Shown: positions 1 to 32,784 of the stretch, one piece after another
Position numbering within the stretch: the stretch's first letter is position 1
Layout: every line of letters begins with the position of its first letter
Assembly: GCA_018062785.1 (NCBI GenBank)
Contig: JAGORO010000013.1
Location: 1 to 34,460, forward strand
DNA: 34,460 nt
Direction: 5' to 3'
From: Candidatus Saccharimonadota bacterium
Lineage (GTDB): Bacteria; Patescibacteriota; Saccharimonadia; Saccharimonadales; UBA4665
Made by a program: the position numbers and the translations under genes
Notes under the pieces: generated by a model
What the model saw: the letters and a program-made list of their open reading frames with translations, nothing else
What the model was told of the DNA's origin: nothing
Database searches by the model: none

Positions 1-320
<320 letters not shown>

Positions 321-718
321 TTACGTTCCAGGAAATGTGCATCGCTTTATCAAAAGCTGGCAAAGCCAGCCTTTGACGAAAGCTTTTGGCACAGAATCAA
401 TTTTTCGCGTGCGGTACGCGGAAGCAGTAGTTTCCTACAGCTTCCTTGCGTTTCCTCCGCGAGAAAATCAATTCTGTACTCAAATGCACACTTCCTGGCT
501 AAAAGTACGTTGACTAGTTATTGGTGTGAAAACACACTAATAGTAACGTTTGTAATACGTTGCTTTGACCTTTTCTAACTTATCCGTCTACTTTTGTAAT
601 GGACATCGACACCGACTGCGACAGCCCCTCGGACTTGAGGGAAAAGAGCAGCCGGAGTCGGCGGATTTATTCCGCGACCCCGCGCGACGAGAAAAACCGT
701 AGGTTTGTCTCTGTTATG
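321..718 (+). other. Structured 23S-5S spacer
   Basis: The ~400-base spacer contains no gene or tRNA that I can see but is rich in inverted repeats. Bases 328-342 (CCAGGAAATGTGCAT) can pair with 484-498 with one mismatch. Nested inside, 391-408 pairs imperfectly with 458-477, and a GGAAGC/GCTTCC hairpin lies at about 419-446. GCTGGC-AAA-GCCAGC forms a small hairpin around 355-369. Nearer 5S, short hairpins are visible (CCCTC/GAGGG near 627-643 and GCGGA-TTTAT-TCCGC near 661-675). Such stems are typical of rRNA processing sites cut by RNase III-like enzymes. That role is inferred. Confidence 0.7.
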
Positions 719-832
719 TCGGTGCCCATAGCGAGAGGGAAATACCTGTTCCCATACCGAACACAGCAGTCAAGCCTCTCAGCGGTTACAATACTTGGGC
801 CTTCTAGCCCTGGGAAAATAGCACGGTGCCGT
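719..832 (+). rRNA. rrf: 5S ribosomal RNA
   Basis: The 5S core is recognisable from the GTTCCCATACCGAACACAG stretch (749-767) and the TGGGC/GCCC region near 795-810. Helix I pairs CGGTGCC (720-726) with GGTGCCG (825-831), using two wobble pairs, which sets the ends. The ~113-base length is normal for 5S. It follows 23S in the usual 23S-5S order and is followed directly by an intrinsic terminator. Confidence 0.93.
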
Positions 833-891
833 TTTAATAAAAAAGACTCCTTACAGGAGTCTTTTTTATTAGACACCGTGCTATTTTCCCA
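811..891 (+). repeat. Inverted copy of the 5S rRNA 3' end around the terminator
   Basis: Bases 811-828 (TGGGAAAATAGCACGGTG), inside the 5S 3' end, are perfectly complementary to 874-891. The rRNA terminator hairpin sits between the two arms, so the transcript could fold into a long compound stem that competes with 5S helix I. The 18-base perfect match is seen directly; any processing or regulatory role is inferred. Confidence 0.85.
836..870 (+). terminator. Intrinsic terminator of the rRNA operon
   Basis: A perfect 15-base stem (836-850 with 856-870) with loop TTACA carries a GACTCC/GGAGTC core and a run of six T in the 3' arm. It lies four bases after the end of 5S. Confidence 0.93.
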
Positions 892-28884: not shown

Positions 28885-28914
28885 TTGCGCAGTAACAGAG
28901 AAATTTGCTATACT
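28885..28914 (+). promoter_or_regulatory. Promoter of the ileS operon
   Basis: TTGCGC (28885-28890) and TATACT (28909-28914) are 18 bases apart, like the ftsA promoter. Transcription would start near 28921 and give a ~250-base leader before the first ORF. Confidence 0.65.
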
Positions 28915-28920
28915 TTTGGA

Positions 28921-29168
28921 CAGAGGCGTTGTAAAGTGTACATCTGCGAGACTACACTTTACAGAGGTGATTATCCCCCACCTGCAAGATATTTTGCCGC
29001 TTCGGGAAGAACACTTCTCGACACGAGAGCTAGTAGAGCCCGACGGGTAGCCCGTAATAGCAATAACTGAGTGCTAAAAGAATCACTTCTTTTGGAAGCC
29101 AGATGGTACCTCCCAAGATGAAATTCATTTGGGATCTGGCATCTAACAGAGGTGATTTTTATTTGGAG
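28921..29168 (+). promoter_or_regulatory. T-box riboswitch candidate (tRNA-Ile sensing leader)
   Basis: The 3' part has the defining T-box fold. GCCAGA (29098-29103) pairs with TCTGGC (29135-29140), the seven-base bulge TGGTACC (29104-29110) follows, and TCCCAA (29111-29116) pairs with TTGGGA (29129-29134). In T-boxes the bulge TGGN pairs with the NCCA end of uncharged tRNA; TGGT fits the A discriminator of tRNA-Ile. Upstream are a perfect 10-base stem (28931-28940 with 28953-28962) and several hairpins. Ile codons that could be the specifier occur at 28942 (ATC), 28970 (ATT) and 28973 (ATC); I cannot choose. No terminator follows. Instead GTACCTCC (29106-29113) can pair 7 of 8 with GGAGTTAC (29165-29172), which holds the Shine-Dalgarno, so control is probably translational. 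IleRS lies in the operon downstream. Confidence 0.8.
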
Positions 29169-29174
29169 TTACAA

Positions 29175-29345
29175 ATGGAAAGTTTTTATGCATCAGAATA
29201 CAGAGTAGACGTTACTTCCCAGCGGGAGATGTCTGGCCTCGAGGTCGATCTTGCTAATATGGCCGACATGGGAAAATACATAAAGCAATTCGAGGCCTTT
29301 TTTGCTGGGCTTGAAGAGATAGGGCTACTCGAGGAGAGGCAATGA
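29175..29345 (+). CDS. Small acidic ORF leading the ileS operon
   Basis: This 56-residue ORF is unrecognised. It is acidic and mostly helical, with no signal peptide or Cys. The ATG at 29175 is six bases after GGAG (29165-29168); a longer frame from 29103 would start inside the T-box bulge and is not credible. Its TGA overlaps the SGNH start by four bases (ATGA). It may act mainly as the ribosome entry point whose translation, set by the T-box, is passed on to the next two genes. Confidence 0.65.
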   Translation: MESFYASEYRVDVTSQREMSGLEVDLANMADMGKYIKQFEAFFAGLEEIGLLEERQ

Positions 29346-29941
29346 AGACAATCCTAGTCTACGGAGATTCAAACACTTGGGGGCAAAATGAATCAAGCGA
29401 GCGCTACCCATATCAGGTTCGATGGGTAAACCAACTTACAGCCAAATTGGGCAGCGAATATTGCGTGATACCGGCCGGCCTATCTGGCAGAGTTGCAGGC
29501 AGCCACGAAGTAGTCGAGCCGCAAAAACGAGGCAAAGACTCGTTCGAGGTTGTATACAAACAGGCCTTTCCACTCGATGTGCTTATTGTGGCCCTCGGCT
29601 CAAACGACATAAAAGAGAAGTACGACTTAACTTCTGAACAGATTACGGCGGACCTATTGTGGTACGCAGAGTCGTTGCAGGAAGCGACTGATTACACCGG
29701 CCAACCCGTGCGGCCGCTCGTTCTTTTTGTCGCGCCACCTAATTTTGTGTATAGCCAAAACGGGTTTACGGGTGATGAACAAAAAAGACAGGCAGTTATT
29801 TCGGGCCTAACTGAGGCGGGACAAGAGGTGGTAGTAGCAAACAGCATTGGTCTTTCCGAAGATGGAGTGCATTTTTCTCCGAAGGGGCACGACCAAATGG
29901 CGATGAAAGTATATGAAAAACTAAAGGAGATGGGTGTATGA
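29342..29941 (+). CDS. SGNH/GDSL hydrolase
   Basis: The 199-residue esterase-like protein has block I GDSNTWG (8-14, nucleophile Ser), a Gly in the PAGLSGR segment (about 44-50), block III GSNDI (about 86-90, oxyanion Asn) and block V DGVHFSPKGH (catalytic Asp and His) near the end. There is no signal peptide, so it acts in the cytoplasm. It resembles arylesterase/acyl-CoA thioesterase-like SGNH proteins; the substrate is unknown. It overlaps the ORF before it and ileS after it by four bases each, so it is translationally coupled on both sides. Its link to isoleucine charging is not evident. Confidence 0.87.
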   Translation: MKTILVYGDSNTWGQNESSERYPYQVRWVNQLTAKLGSEYCVIPAGLSGRVAGSHEVVEPQKRGKDSFEVVYKQAFPLDVLIVALGSNDIKEKYDLTSEQITADLLWYAESLQEATDYTGQPVRPLVLFVAPPNFVYSQNGFTGDEQKRQAVISGLTEAGQEVVVANSIGLSEDGVHFSPKGHDQMAMKVYEKLKEMGV

Positions 29942-32784
29942 AGTTCAAAAGCGGCACAAGACGACGAGCGTTAGAGTACGAAAAAGACTGGGTACAGCGG
30001 TGGAAACAGAATAACACCTTCGAAAAGTCGGTCGAGAACCGACCAGAAGATAATCGGTATGTTTTCTATGATGGTCCACCGTTTATCTCTGGGGTGCCGC
30101 ACCATGGTACGCTCCTGAGTTCGATCGTCAAGGATGCAGTGCCACGGTACTGGACCATGAAAGGCAAGCGGGTTGAGCGTGTATGGGGTTGGGATTGCCA
30201 TGGCTTACCAGCCGAGCGGTTTACAGAGAAAAAGCTCGGGATCCATAGCCGCCAAGAGGTTATCGAATACGGCATCGAAAAGTACATCGTTGCGACCCGA
30301 AACAATATGGTTCAGACAAGCAGCGAGTGGGAAGATGTCGTAGATCGTATTGGCCGTTGGGTAGAGTTCCGAGGCGCCTATAAAACCATGGACAAAGAGT
30401 ACATGGAGTCTATTTGGTGGGCGTTCAAGACGCTATACGAGCAGGGCAAAATATTCGAGGGCGAAAAGGTTCTGATGTACTGCACGCTCGACGGTACTCC
30501 GCTGTCGAAAGCCGAGGTTACTATGGACGCAGGCGCCTACCAAGATGTGACCGACCCAAGTGTGTACGTGAAGTTCAAGCTCGAAGACGGTAGGATATTG
30601 CTGGCTTGGACGACCACGCCGTGGACACTCCCTGCCAACACAGCCTTAGCCGTCAACGAAAAGCTGACATATGTCGAAGTAGAAGTAGCAGGTGAGCGGT
30701 TTATACTGGCAAAAGAGCTGGTTACTAAGGTGTTGCAAGACGAAAAACATCAGCCAATTGACCACAGGCTACTCGGCGAGATACATGGGCGAGAGCTGGT
30801 AGGGCAGAAATATCAGCCACTGCTTGGCGTTGATCGTGGCCAAAATGCCCATACGGTTTGGCACGCTCCGTACGTCAGCCACGAGGACGGTACCGGTATC
30901 GTCCATATTGCACCTGCCTACGGCGAAGAGGACTTCTTGCTCGCAAAAGACAAGAAAATACCGGTGGTGCACACCATTGATCAAAACGGCATATTCACCG
31001 AGTCAGCGTGGAGCGGGCAAAACGTCTGGGGGGTGAACAAACAGATTGCCAAGGATCTCAAGGAACAAGGTGTTGTGTGGAAGGTAGACTATATCAGGCA
31101 TAGCTATCCGCACTGTCACCGCTGTGGCACCAAACTGATGTATCGTGCCCATCCGAGTTGGTTTATGGACATCGAGGGCCAGCGGACGCTCATGCTCGAG
31201 AAAAACGAACCAATAACGTGGTTCCCAGAGCATGTAAAGCACGGGCGTTTCGAGAAAACCATCGAACAGGCGCCAGACTGGAATATCTCTCGGGATCGCT
31301 TCTGGGCGACGGCGATGCCCGTCTGGAAGTCCGAGAGTGGTAAGATCCGCGTGGTTGGAAGTTATGCTGAACTTGCCGAACTTTCGGGTGTAGTCCTAGA
31401 GGATTACCACCGGCCGTGGATCGACGATGTAACATTTGAGATTGATGGCGAGAAGTACACGCGGATCGATAAGGTGATGGACAGTTGGTTCGAGGCGGGC
31501 AGTATGCCATTTGCACAGTTCCACTATCCGTTTGAGAACAAAGAGAAATTTGAGGCCAATTTCCCAGGCGACTTTATCGTCGAGTACATCGGTCAGGTGC
31601 GCGCATGGTTTTACTACATGCACGCGATGAGTGTGGCGTTATTTGGCGAAAATAGCTTCAAAAACGTCATCGTTACAGGCAATGTTGCCGGTAATGATGG
31701 ACGGAAAATGAGCAAGAGCTATGGAAACTATACCGATCCGAATGAGCTAATGGACAAATTTTCGGCCGATAGCTTGCGCTACTTGTTGCTGTCGAGCCCA
31801 CTTTTGAACGGTGAGGATTTTGCGCTCCAAGACAAAGAAGTTGGCGATGTTGCGCGGAAGCTCAGTATGGTCTGGAATATGTACGATTTCTTTACGCTCT
31901 ACGCCGAAGCAGACGAGTGGGAATGGGACGGGAAGCTAAGTGATCCAATAGAGAAGTGTACTAATGCGCTCGACATCTGGATACTTTCGCGGTTACATCA
32001 GCTCGTTGGAGAGGTGGAAAAGCATATGGATAGCTACAATATCCCTGATGCCATGAGTCCGATCTTGCCGTTCTTGGACGACGCCAGTAACTGGTATGTG
32101 CGCCGGAGTCGCCGCCGTTTTTGGAAGAGTGAGGACGATGCCGACAAGGAAATGGCCTACCGGACACTCCACTATGTACTGGTGCGACTGGCCTATGTAC
32201 TGGCGCCATTTACGCCGTTTTTGAGCGAGGAGCTCTACCGTAATCTGACGGGCGATGCTGAGTCGATTCACCTTAAGGATTGGCTACCGGCAGGCAAGCC
32301 GAATGAGCTTGTGATGAATGAGATGGAGGAAGTCCGTGAGTACGTTAATCAGGGGCTAAGCTTGCGGGCGAAAGCAGGGCTCAAGGTTCGTCAACCCTTG
32401 GCGAGTGTTACCGTGCCAAAACTGGGTGAACATGTTGATTTCGTAGCTATTTTGCAAGATGAGATGAATGTCAAAGAAGTAAAAACCGGCTCTGAGGTTG
32501 CAATTGACGAAAAGCTTACGCCAGAACTCAAGCGCGAAGGACTGATGCGTGAGGTAGTACGCCATGTTCAGGCTGCTCGTAAGGCCGCAGGACTGCAGGT
32601 AGACGACAGAATAAGCCTTATGCTTACCTCTGACAATTCAGAGCTTATACGAGCCCTAGAAGAGCACAGGAGCGTTATTATGGCGGAGACGCTGGCCGAA
32701 GCACTCGAACTAACCGGTCATGCTGGCGCCCAAGAGGTGAAGGTCGAAGGGCTAGCGCTGCAGCTCTACCTGCAAAAAACGTAA
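29938..32784 (+). CDS. ileS: Isoleucyl-tRNA synthetase (long, eukaryote-like type)
   Basis: The 948-residue class I synthetase charges tRNA-Ile. Its signature 1 reads GVPHHGTLL (about 51-59), where the HIGH motif is HHGT. The CP1 editing domain contains LAWTTTPWTLPANTALAV and HIAPAYGEEDF; KMSKS appears intact as RKMSKSYGNY (about 584-593). The anticodon-binding domain follows, ending without the Cys-rich zinc module of E. coli IleRS. This architecture matches type-2 IleRS of eukaryotes and many actinobacteria and CPR, which is often mupirocin-resistant. It starts with an ATGA overlap after the SGNH gene and is under the T-box leader. Confidence 0.96.
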   Translation: MKFKSGTRRRALEYEKDWVQRWKQNNTFEKSVENRPEDNRYVFYDGPPFISGVPHHGTLLSSIVKDAVPRYWTMKGKRVERVWGWDCHGLPAERFTEKKLGIHSRQEVIEYGIEKYIVATRNNMVQTSSEWEDVVDRIGRWVEFRGAYKTMDKEYMESIWWAFKTLYEQGKIFEGEKVLMYCTLDGTPLSKAEVTMDAGAYQDVTDPSVYVKFKLEDGRILLAWTTTPWTLPANTALAVNEKLTYVEVEVAGERFILAKELVTKVLQDEKHQPIDHRLLGEIHGRELVGQKYQPLLGVDRGQNAHTVWHAPYVSHEDGTGIVHIAPAYGEEDFLLAKDKKIPVVHTIDQNGIFTESAWSGQNVWGVNKQIAKDLKEQGVVWKVDYIRHSYPHCHRCGTKLMYRAHPSWFMDIEGQRTLMLEKNEPITWFPEHVKHGRFEKTIEQAPDWNISRDRFWATAMPVWKSESGKIRVVGSYAELAELSGVVLEDYHRPWIDDVTFEIDGEKYTRIDKVMDSWFEAGSMPFAQFHYPFENKEKFEANFPGDFIVEYIGQVRAWFYYMHAMSVALFGENSFKNVIVTGNVAGNDGRKMSKSYGNYTDPNELMDKFSADSLRYLLLSSPLLNGEDFALQDKEVGDVARKLSMVWNMYDFFTLYAEADEWEWDGKLSDPIEKCTNALDIWILSRLHQLVGEVEKHMDSYNIPDAMSPILPFLDDASNWYVRRSRRRFWKSEDDADKEMAYRTLHYVLVRLAYVLAPFTPFLSEELYRNLTGDAESIHLKDWLPAGKPNELVMNEMEEVREYVNQGLSLRAKAGLKVRQPLASVTVPKLGEHVDFVAILQDEMNVKEVKTGSEVAIDEKLTPELKREGLMREVVRHVQAARKAAGLQVDDRISLMLTSDNSELIRALEEHRSVIMAETLAEALELTGHAGAQEVKVEGLALQLYLQKT

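Follow-up and report, generated by a model that had tools for sequence, protein, structure and literature searches.

The locus studied here lies in a window of 34,460 nucleotides (the whole stretch of DNA that was analysed) from a Candidatus Saccharimonadota bacterium. It raises the question of whether the leader of an isoleucyl-tRNA synthetase operon is a riboswitch of the T-box kind and, if so, how it would control the genes behind it. The earlier note had proposed a tRNA-Ile T-box in front of an ileS operon in a probable Patescibacterium, and this was borne out by a discriminator, an AUC specifier and an ileS gene recognised by TIGR00392. The candidate promoter and the genes of the locus are as follows.

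28885 to 28914, forward strand: candidate promoter TTGCGC-18-TATACT, directly 5′ of the leader (sequence reading; suggestive only)
29175 to 29345, forward strand: first ORF of the operon, 56 aa from ATG, without a Pfam match
29342 to 29941, forward strand: SGNH/GDSL hydrolase gene (PF13472, E 9e-11)
29938 to 32784, forward strand: ileS, isoleucyl-tRNA synthetase (TIGR00392), the gene predicted to be regulated

In the profile search, the ileS product scored 780.7 bits against a TIGR00392 cut-off of 621.4. The first ORF would be 60 aa long from an alternative start, TTG at 29163. The 56-aa ORF and the GDSL hydrolase gene separate the window leader from ileS; among the leaders of the order, ileS lies 3′ of the element in 76/79, at a median distance of 22 nt. 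The small genes between the T-box and ileS vary by genome (GDSL hydrolase, GNAT-like protein and others; 29163–29941 in the window) and look like unrelated genes captured into the regulated operon. A −10-like hexamer was present 5′ of the specifier hairpin in 45/79 relatives, compared with 27% in shuffles.

The search with RF00230 that the earlier note had proposed came back empty, with no match to the window leader at E ≤ 5 and none in its own genome. A mir-3126 match in the Rfam search was rejected as spurious; it fell on the palindromic hairpin, on both strands. Rfam was silent on the leader, and T-box membership was therefore tested by other means. The leader was matched by blastn in 24/99 related genomes, and a covariance model (R1) was built from 22 leaders, the window sequence among them. 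R1 found the element in 203/295 genomes of the order, almost always immediately 5′ of ileS, and more weakly in 98/380 sampled genomes of the phylum; antisense R1 matches are explained by the nearly palindromic sequence of the hairpin. Where matches to the core motif carried names, these were nearly all Candidatus Saccharibacteria, among them an oral taxon 348 strain and the complete genomes CP025011 and CP011211; these named relatives place the host of the window in Candidatus Saccharibacteria. The failure of RF00230 is a detection limit for short-Stem-I forms, not a biological feature, and was most likely caused by the model expecting a longer Stem I.

Elsewhere in the phylum, T-box presence is readable from existing models, since RF00230 gave a signal in 123/362 genomes, 13 of which passed the cut-off; the Saccharibacterial class accounted for 0/13 of these. 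The RF00230-type T-boxes of other phylum classes (L083–L112) precede proS, argS, hisS and tyrS as well as genes of amino-acid biosynthesis, argG and trpD among them, and some genomes carry at least six of them. The suggestion that a T-box would be notable in this lineage stood as far as the lineage, Patescibacteria, is concerned, but its rarity argument was weakened because the T-box is common in the order (203/295 genomes) and widespread in the phylum.

The 263-nt leader folded 6 SD better than dinucleotide shuffles. Its 5′ parts were placed as listed.

28929 to 28963, forward strand: variable hairpin UGUAAAGUGUA...UACACUUUACA, adjoining the 5′ side of the specifier hairpin (MFE fold)
28965 to 28983, forward strand: Stem I specifier hairpin AGGUG-AUUAUCCCC-CACCU (sequence)
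29004 to 29041, forward strand: Stem II with S-turn, GAA (29009–29011) opposite AGUA (29032–29035) (sequence)
29043 to 29060, forward strand: stem IIA/B element ACGGG-UAG-CCCGU-AAUAGC (sequence, relatives)
29069 to 29073, forward strand: RRRxG purine motif GAGUG (sequence)

Almost all blastn-matched leaders had the same order of parts: a GYGG-CUAUCAA-CCRC hairpin, GGAAGAA...AGUAGA, an ACGGG-type stem IIA, RRRxG and a hairpin, followed by AA, A1, UGGUACC, A2, one more strand that runs into a U-tract, and ileS. The variable hairpin occupies the same place in relatives, in which the S-turn strands GGAAGAA...AGUAGA are also kept; such S-turns have been described in stem II (PMC7583486). The CG/CG core of stem IIA/B was invariant or nearly so across 59 leaders. 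Pseudoknot complementarity in the family reached 3.41, above all tail-swap controls (mean 2.81, maximum 3.10), and testing of the window copy revealed no clear pseudoknot complementarity. RRRxG was located in 77/79 leaders by a parser that required the motif, and AA preceded A1 in 77/77. The arrangement 5′-RRRxG-StemIII-AA-3′ is among the T-box parts given in a review (PMC7583486), and the window contains GAGUG-StemIII-AA.

The Ile codon AUC of the window specifier lies at 28973–28975, a position assigned by eye, the automatic specifier search having chosen another hairpin. An AUC hairpin stood in this position in nearly all 79 leaders of the order, with a loop that was mostly CUAUCAA; the window loop is atypical, with 9 nt instead of the usual 7 and with C instead of A after AUC. 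Leaders found by the same model outside the order precede ileS, valS, tyrS, aspS and thrS. Among these, an AUC-A hairpin loop was present before 19/19 ileS genes and a GUC-A loop before 15/19 valS genes (AUC-A/GUC-A versus ileS/valS, two crossovers in each direction; Fisher p 1.2e-6), the tyrS leaders had UAC, and GAC occurred in 2/4 leaders of aspartyl enzymes. Short of experiment, no functional evidence is stronger than a predicted specifier codon that changes with the gene in this way. Across Patescibacteria, the specifier codon of short-Stem-I T-boxes (L073–L152) mostly fits valS, tyrS, aspS, thrS or ileS, and a valS leader (L149) has, upstream of the element, two adjoining hairpins with the loops GUC (Val) and AUC (Ile).

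A search for tRNA-Ile(GAU) in the draft assembly of the window's own genome did not find it, so the ACCA end was read from the tRNA-Ile(GAU) of relatives, including members of the same genus. This end is complementary to UGGU, in agreement with the earlier reading of the bulge as a match to tRNA-Ile. The contig begins within the 23S rRNA 3′ end, with 5S behind it (window 1–834). The tRNA-Ile(GAU) gene not found in the assembly may sit in an rRNA-operon gap.

The discriminator itself was examined by sequence, covariation and duplex energies.

29098 to 29140, forward strand: antiterminator, formed by helices A1 and A2 around the T-box bulge

The earlier note had described TGGTACC between two 6-bp helices, and this is what the window contains. 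A1 (GCCAGA/UCUGGC, 29098–29103/29135–29140) and A2 (UCCCAA/UUGGGA, 29111–29116/29129–29134) are both perfect 6-bp helices, and the 7-nt bulge UGGUACC lies between them at 29104–29110. In a 59-leader alignment that had been fitted to the covariance model, A1 was 99.7% paired with two-sided changes in 4/6 pairs, and A2 was 98.7% paired with two-sided changes in 4/4 pairs. The alignment of related ileS leaders that had been proposed as a second check thus gave A1/A2 pairing of 99–100% and compensatory changes in 8/10 pairs. Loss of either TGGTACC or the covariation in relatives had been named as evidence against a T-box; the bulge was exactly UGGUACC in 61/77 parsed leaders and a near variant in the others, and both helices covary. 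UGGAACC was found in 6/77 ileS leaders of the order (L036, L045, L046, L059, L207 and L209), a UGGA variant whose fourth base would be mismatched with A73 of tRNA-Ile. The window A2 starts with U-A, not with the usual G-U, and U-A was seen in 10/59 leaders. That usual G-U pair acts as the main steric sensor of tRNA charging (PMC7583486).

Around and before this discriminator, two further helices and a U-tract were recognised.

29074 to 29095, forward strand: Stem III, CUAAAAGAA-UCAC-UUCUUUUGG (folds, covariation in relatives)
29080 to 29158, forward strand: predicted terminator hairpin enclosing A1/A2, in which 29080–29090 pairs with 29148–29158 (covariation, energy)
29156 to 29164, forward strand: U-tract UUUUUAUUU, 3′ of the terminator stem (sequence, relatives)

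Stem III closed in 72/77 parsed leaders versus 4% of shuffles, and in the 22-leader alignment 8/9 of its pairs had two-sided changes; for the fold of Stem III, A1 and A2 together, 95.0% pairing and two-sided changes in 17/23 pairs were obtained. A pairing of AAGYG with CACUU was also considered and was dropped, as it showed no covariation (L006, L012), whereas CUAAAAGAA/UUCUUUUGG covaries. The terminator stem is A+U-rich, with a duplex energy of −12.1 kcal/mol in the window. In the fitted 59-leader alignment, this helix was 96.0% paired with two-sided changes in 13/13 core pairs, and the terminator helix, A1 and A2 together were 95.6% paired with two-sided changes in 23/28 pairs; none of the shuffles was as good (0/500), and slid versions were 36–50% paired. 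In the window, UUUUU at 29156–29160 is flush with the helix. A U-tract (at least 5 T in 8 nt) followed the helix in 79/79 leaders versus 15% of control places, a count that is partly selected, as the U-tract columns belong to the covariance model. It is not merely selected, because most first-round blastn matches stopped 5′ of the U-tract. The last 10 nt before the U-tract paired with the Stem III side at a mean of 0.84, compared with 0.02 downstream of the bulge. The fold with the terminator (OFF) was predicted to be more stable than the fold with Stem III (ON) in 76/77 leaders (mean −31.1 versus −21.5 kcal/mol). The 3′ strand of Stem III is the 5′ strand of the terminator, and the two are therefore mutually exclusive. 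The earlier statement that the leader has no terminator does not hold against this covarying helix with its U-tract; a simple terminator scan misses the hairpin because its loops are limited to 3–8 nt. The expression platform is best described as a conserved hairpin with a U-tract, namely a predicted intrinsic terminator competing with the tRNA-bound fold. In a few members of the class (L077, L079, L147), a separate hairpin terminator follows A1 and is not nested, indicating that the platform changed within the class.

The earlier note had instead favoured a translational switch, in which, without uncharged tRNA, 29106–29113 would pair with the Shine-Dalgarno sequence of the first ORF, and tRNA binding would free it. 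Such a pairing is possible in the window, where GUACCUCC and GGAGUUAC form a duplex with one mismatch at −6.0 kcal/mol, and the actinobacterial short-stem-I (class III) T-boxes mostly act on translation (PMC10482949). As a conserved switch, however, the pairing failed: across 71 relatives, the longest run between the T-box flank and the Shine-Dalgarno region was 3.80 versus 3.98 with shuffled Shine-Dalgarno regions. In a second test, the pairing probability of the Shine-Dalgarno sequence was 0.47 versus 0.44 for neighbouring bases. Shine-Dalgarno sequestration is at chance level by both tests. A translational switch would also assign no role to the U-tract that directly abuts a covarying helix in all leaders, and we regard it as unlikely.

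Taken together, our preferred reading is that the leader is a tRNA-Ile T-box that regulates transcription of the ileS operon by attenuation, to which we assign a probability of about 0.83. The evidence is computational throughout. Sequence comparison establishes the parts, the mutually exclusive covarying helices, the U-tract, the match of gene and specifier and the tRNA end; from it we infer that the tRNA binds, that its charging is discriminated and that transcription does terminate. Uncharged tRNA-Ile would bind AUC through its GAU anticodon and UGGU through its ACCA end, and the bound tRNA would keep Stem III and A1/A2 joined as one discriminator. With Stem III formed, its 3′ strand would be barred from 29148–29158, no hairpin would precede the U-tract, and RNA polymerase would read through into ileS. 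With tRNA-Ile charged or absent, the downstream strand would capture the Stem III strand instead; the resulting long hairpin, with A1/A2 still inside it, would be followed by U5, and transcription would stop.

The terminator helix can form together with A1 and A2, which lengthen it, and this would also fit the opposite logic: tRNA bound to A1/A2 would nucleate the enclosing helix and promote termination, so that uncharged tRNA would repress ileS. This is very improbable. The terminator would destroy a conserved, covarying Stem III and its purine flanks, which are required for tRNA binding in known structures (PMC7583486), and the need of Stem III for tRNA capture therefore counts against the inverted logic; repression of ileS on starvation would also make little physiological sense. 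Another reading accepts the family as T-boxes and holds that the window copy has decayed and lost charging discrimination or tRNA binding, as its atypical AUCC specifier loop, the U-A pair at the base of A2 and the lack of a clear pseudoknot might suggest. Its discriminator, Stem III, S-turn and terminator are nevertheless intact, the U-A pair recurs in 10/59 leaders, and R1 gives it 122 bits, one of the highest scores in the order, though its sequence is among the 22 used for the model. Decay of this copy is unlikely, and attenuation by a working T-box remains our preferred reading.

The class III T-boxes (short Stem I; for example, ileS of Nocardia farcinica and Mycobacterium tuberculosis) share with the Saccharibacterial leaders the ileS target, a short Stem I with an AUC apical loop, the Stem II S-turn, stem IIA/B, Stem III and a UGGUACC-type discriminator. 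They differ in that class III T-boxes mostly control translation (PMC10482949), whereas in the Saccharibacterial leaders a predicted terminator and U-tract replace the Shine-Dalgarno sequestrator; the Saccharibacterial specifier loop typically has 7 nt (9 in the window), and a variable hairpin stands 5′ of the specifier hairpin. The class I transcriptional T-boxes (RF00230; for example, Bacillus subtilis tyrS) have in common with them the specifier, Stem II, Stem III, the antiterminator and an intrinsic terminator with a U-tract, the Saccharibacterial one being predicted, but the Saccharibacterial leaders are without the long Stem I and its elbow-binding module. In the canonical transcriptional T-box, the 3′ strands of A1/A2 build the 5′ strand of the terminator (PMC7583486), whereas the Saccharibacterial A1/A2 would remain paired within the terminator, the strand taken being that of Stem III. 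The RF00230-type T-boxes of Patescibacteria, from the same phylum and with the same discriminator, mostly have the canonical terminator wiring: in most of them, the nucleotides before the U-tract pair with the 3′ strands of A1/A2 or with a hairpin that comes after these. Other short-Stem-I leaders of the phylum showed mixed wiring.

The T-box as a kind of riboswitch is already known, and the lineage is poorly documented. No report of published T-boxes from Saccharibacteria, Patescibacteria or CPR was found in a search that reached few subscription papers and no bioRxiv. What is new is the Saccharibacterial family missed by RF00230, together with its predicted use of a terminator although Stem I is short, and the predicted nested wiring. 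It seems fairly likely that this is a distinct platform, with the tRNA-binding discriminator nested in the terminator, Stem III and the terminator as the switch and a Saccharibacteria-wide link of ileS to isoleucine supply, and that the regulons of the phylum (Ile, Val, Tyr, Asp and more) are apparently undescribed.

Annotation based on RF00230 overlooks the Saccharibacterial T-box family. The nested wiring would be a second route from tRNA binding to terminator control, in which the contested strand belongs to Stem III and not to the antiterminator. Host-dependent Saccharibacteria are probably isoleucine-auxotrophic. A 2024 perspective on Patescibacteria mentions no native riboswitch and states that nothing at all is known of the mechanisms behind the switch between starved free cells and host-attached ones (PMC11665869). 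With a tRNA-charging sensor on ileS, starvation sensing would become open to direct tests in oral Saccharibacteria grown in culture.
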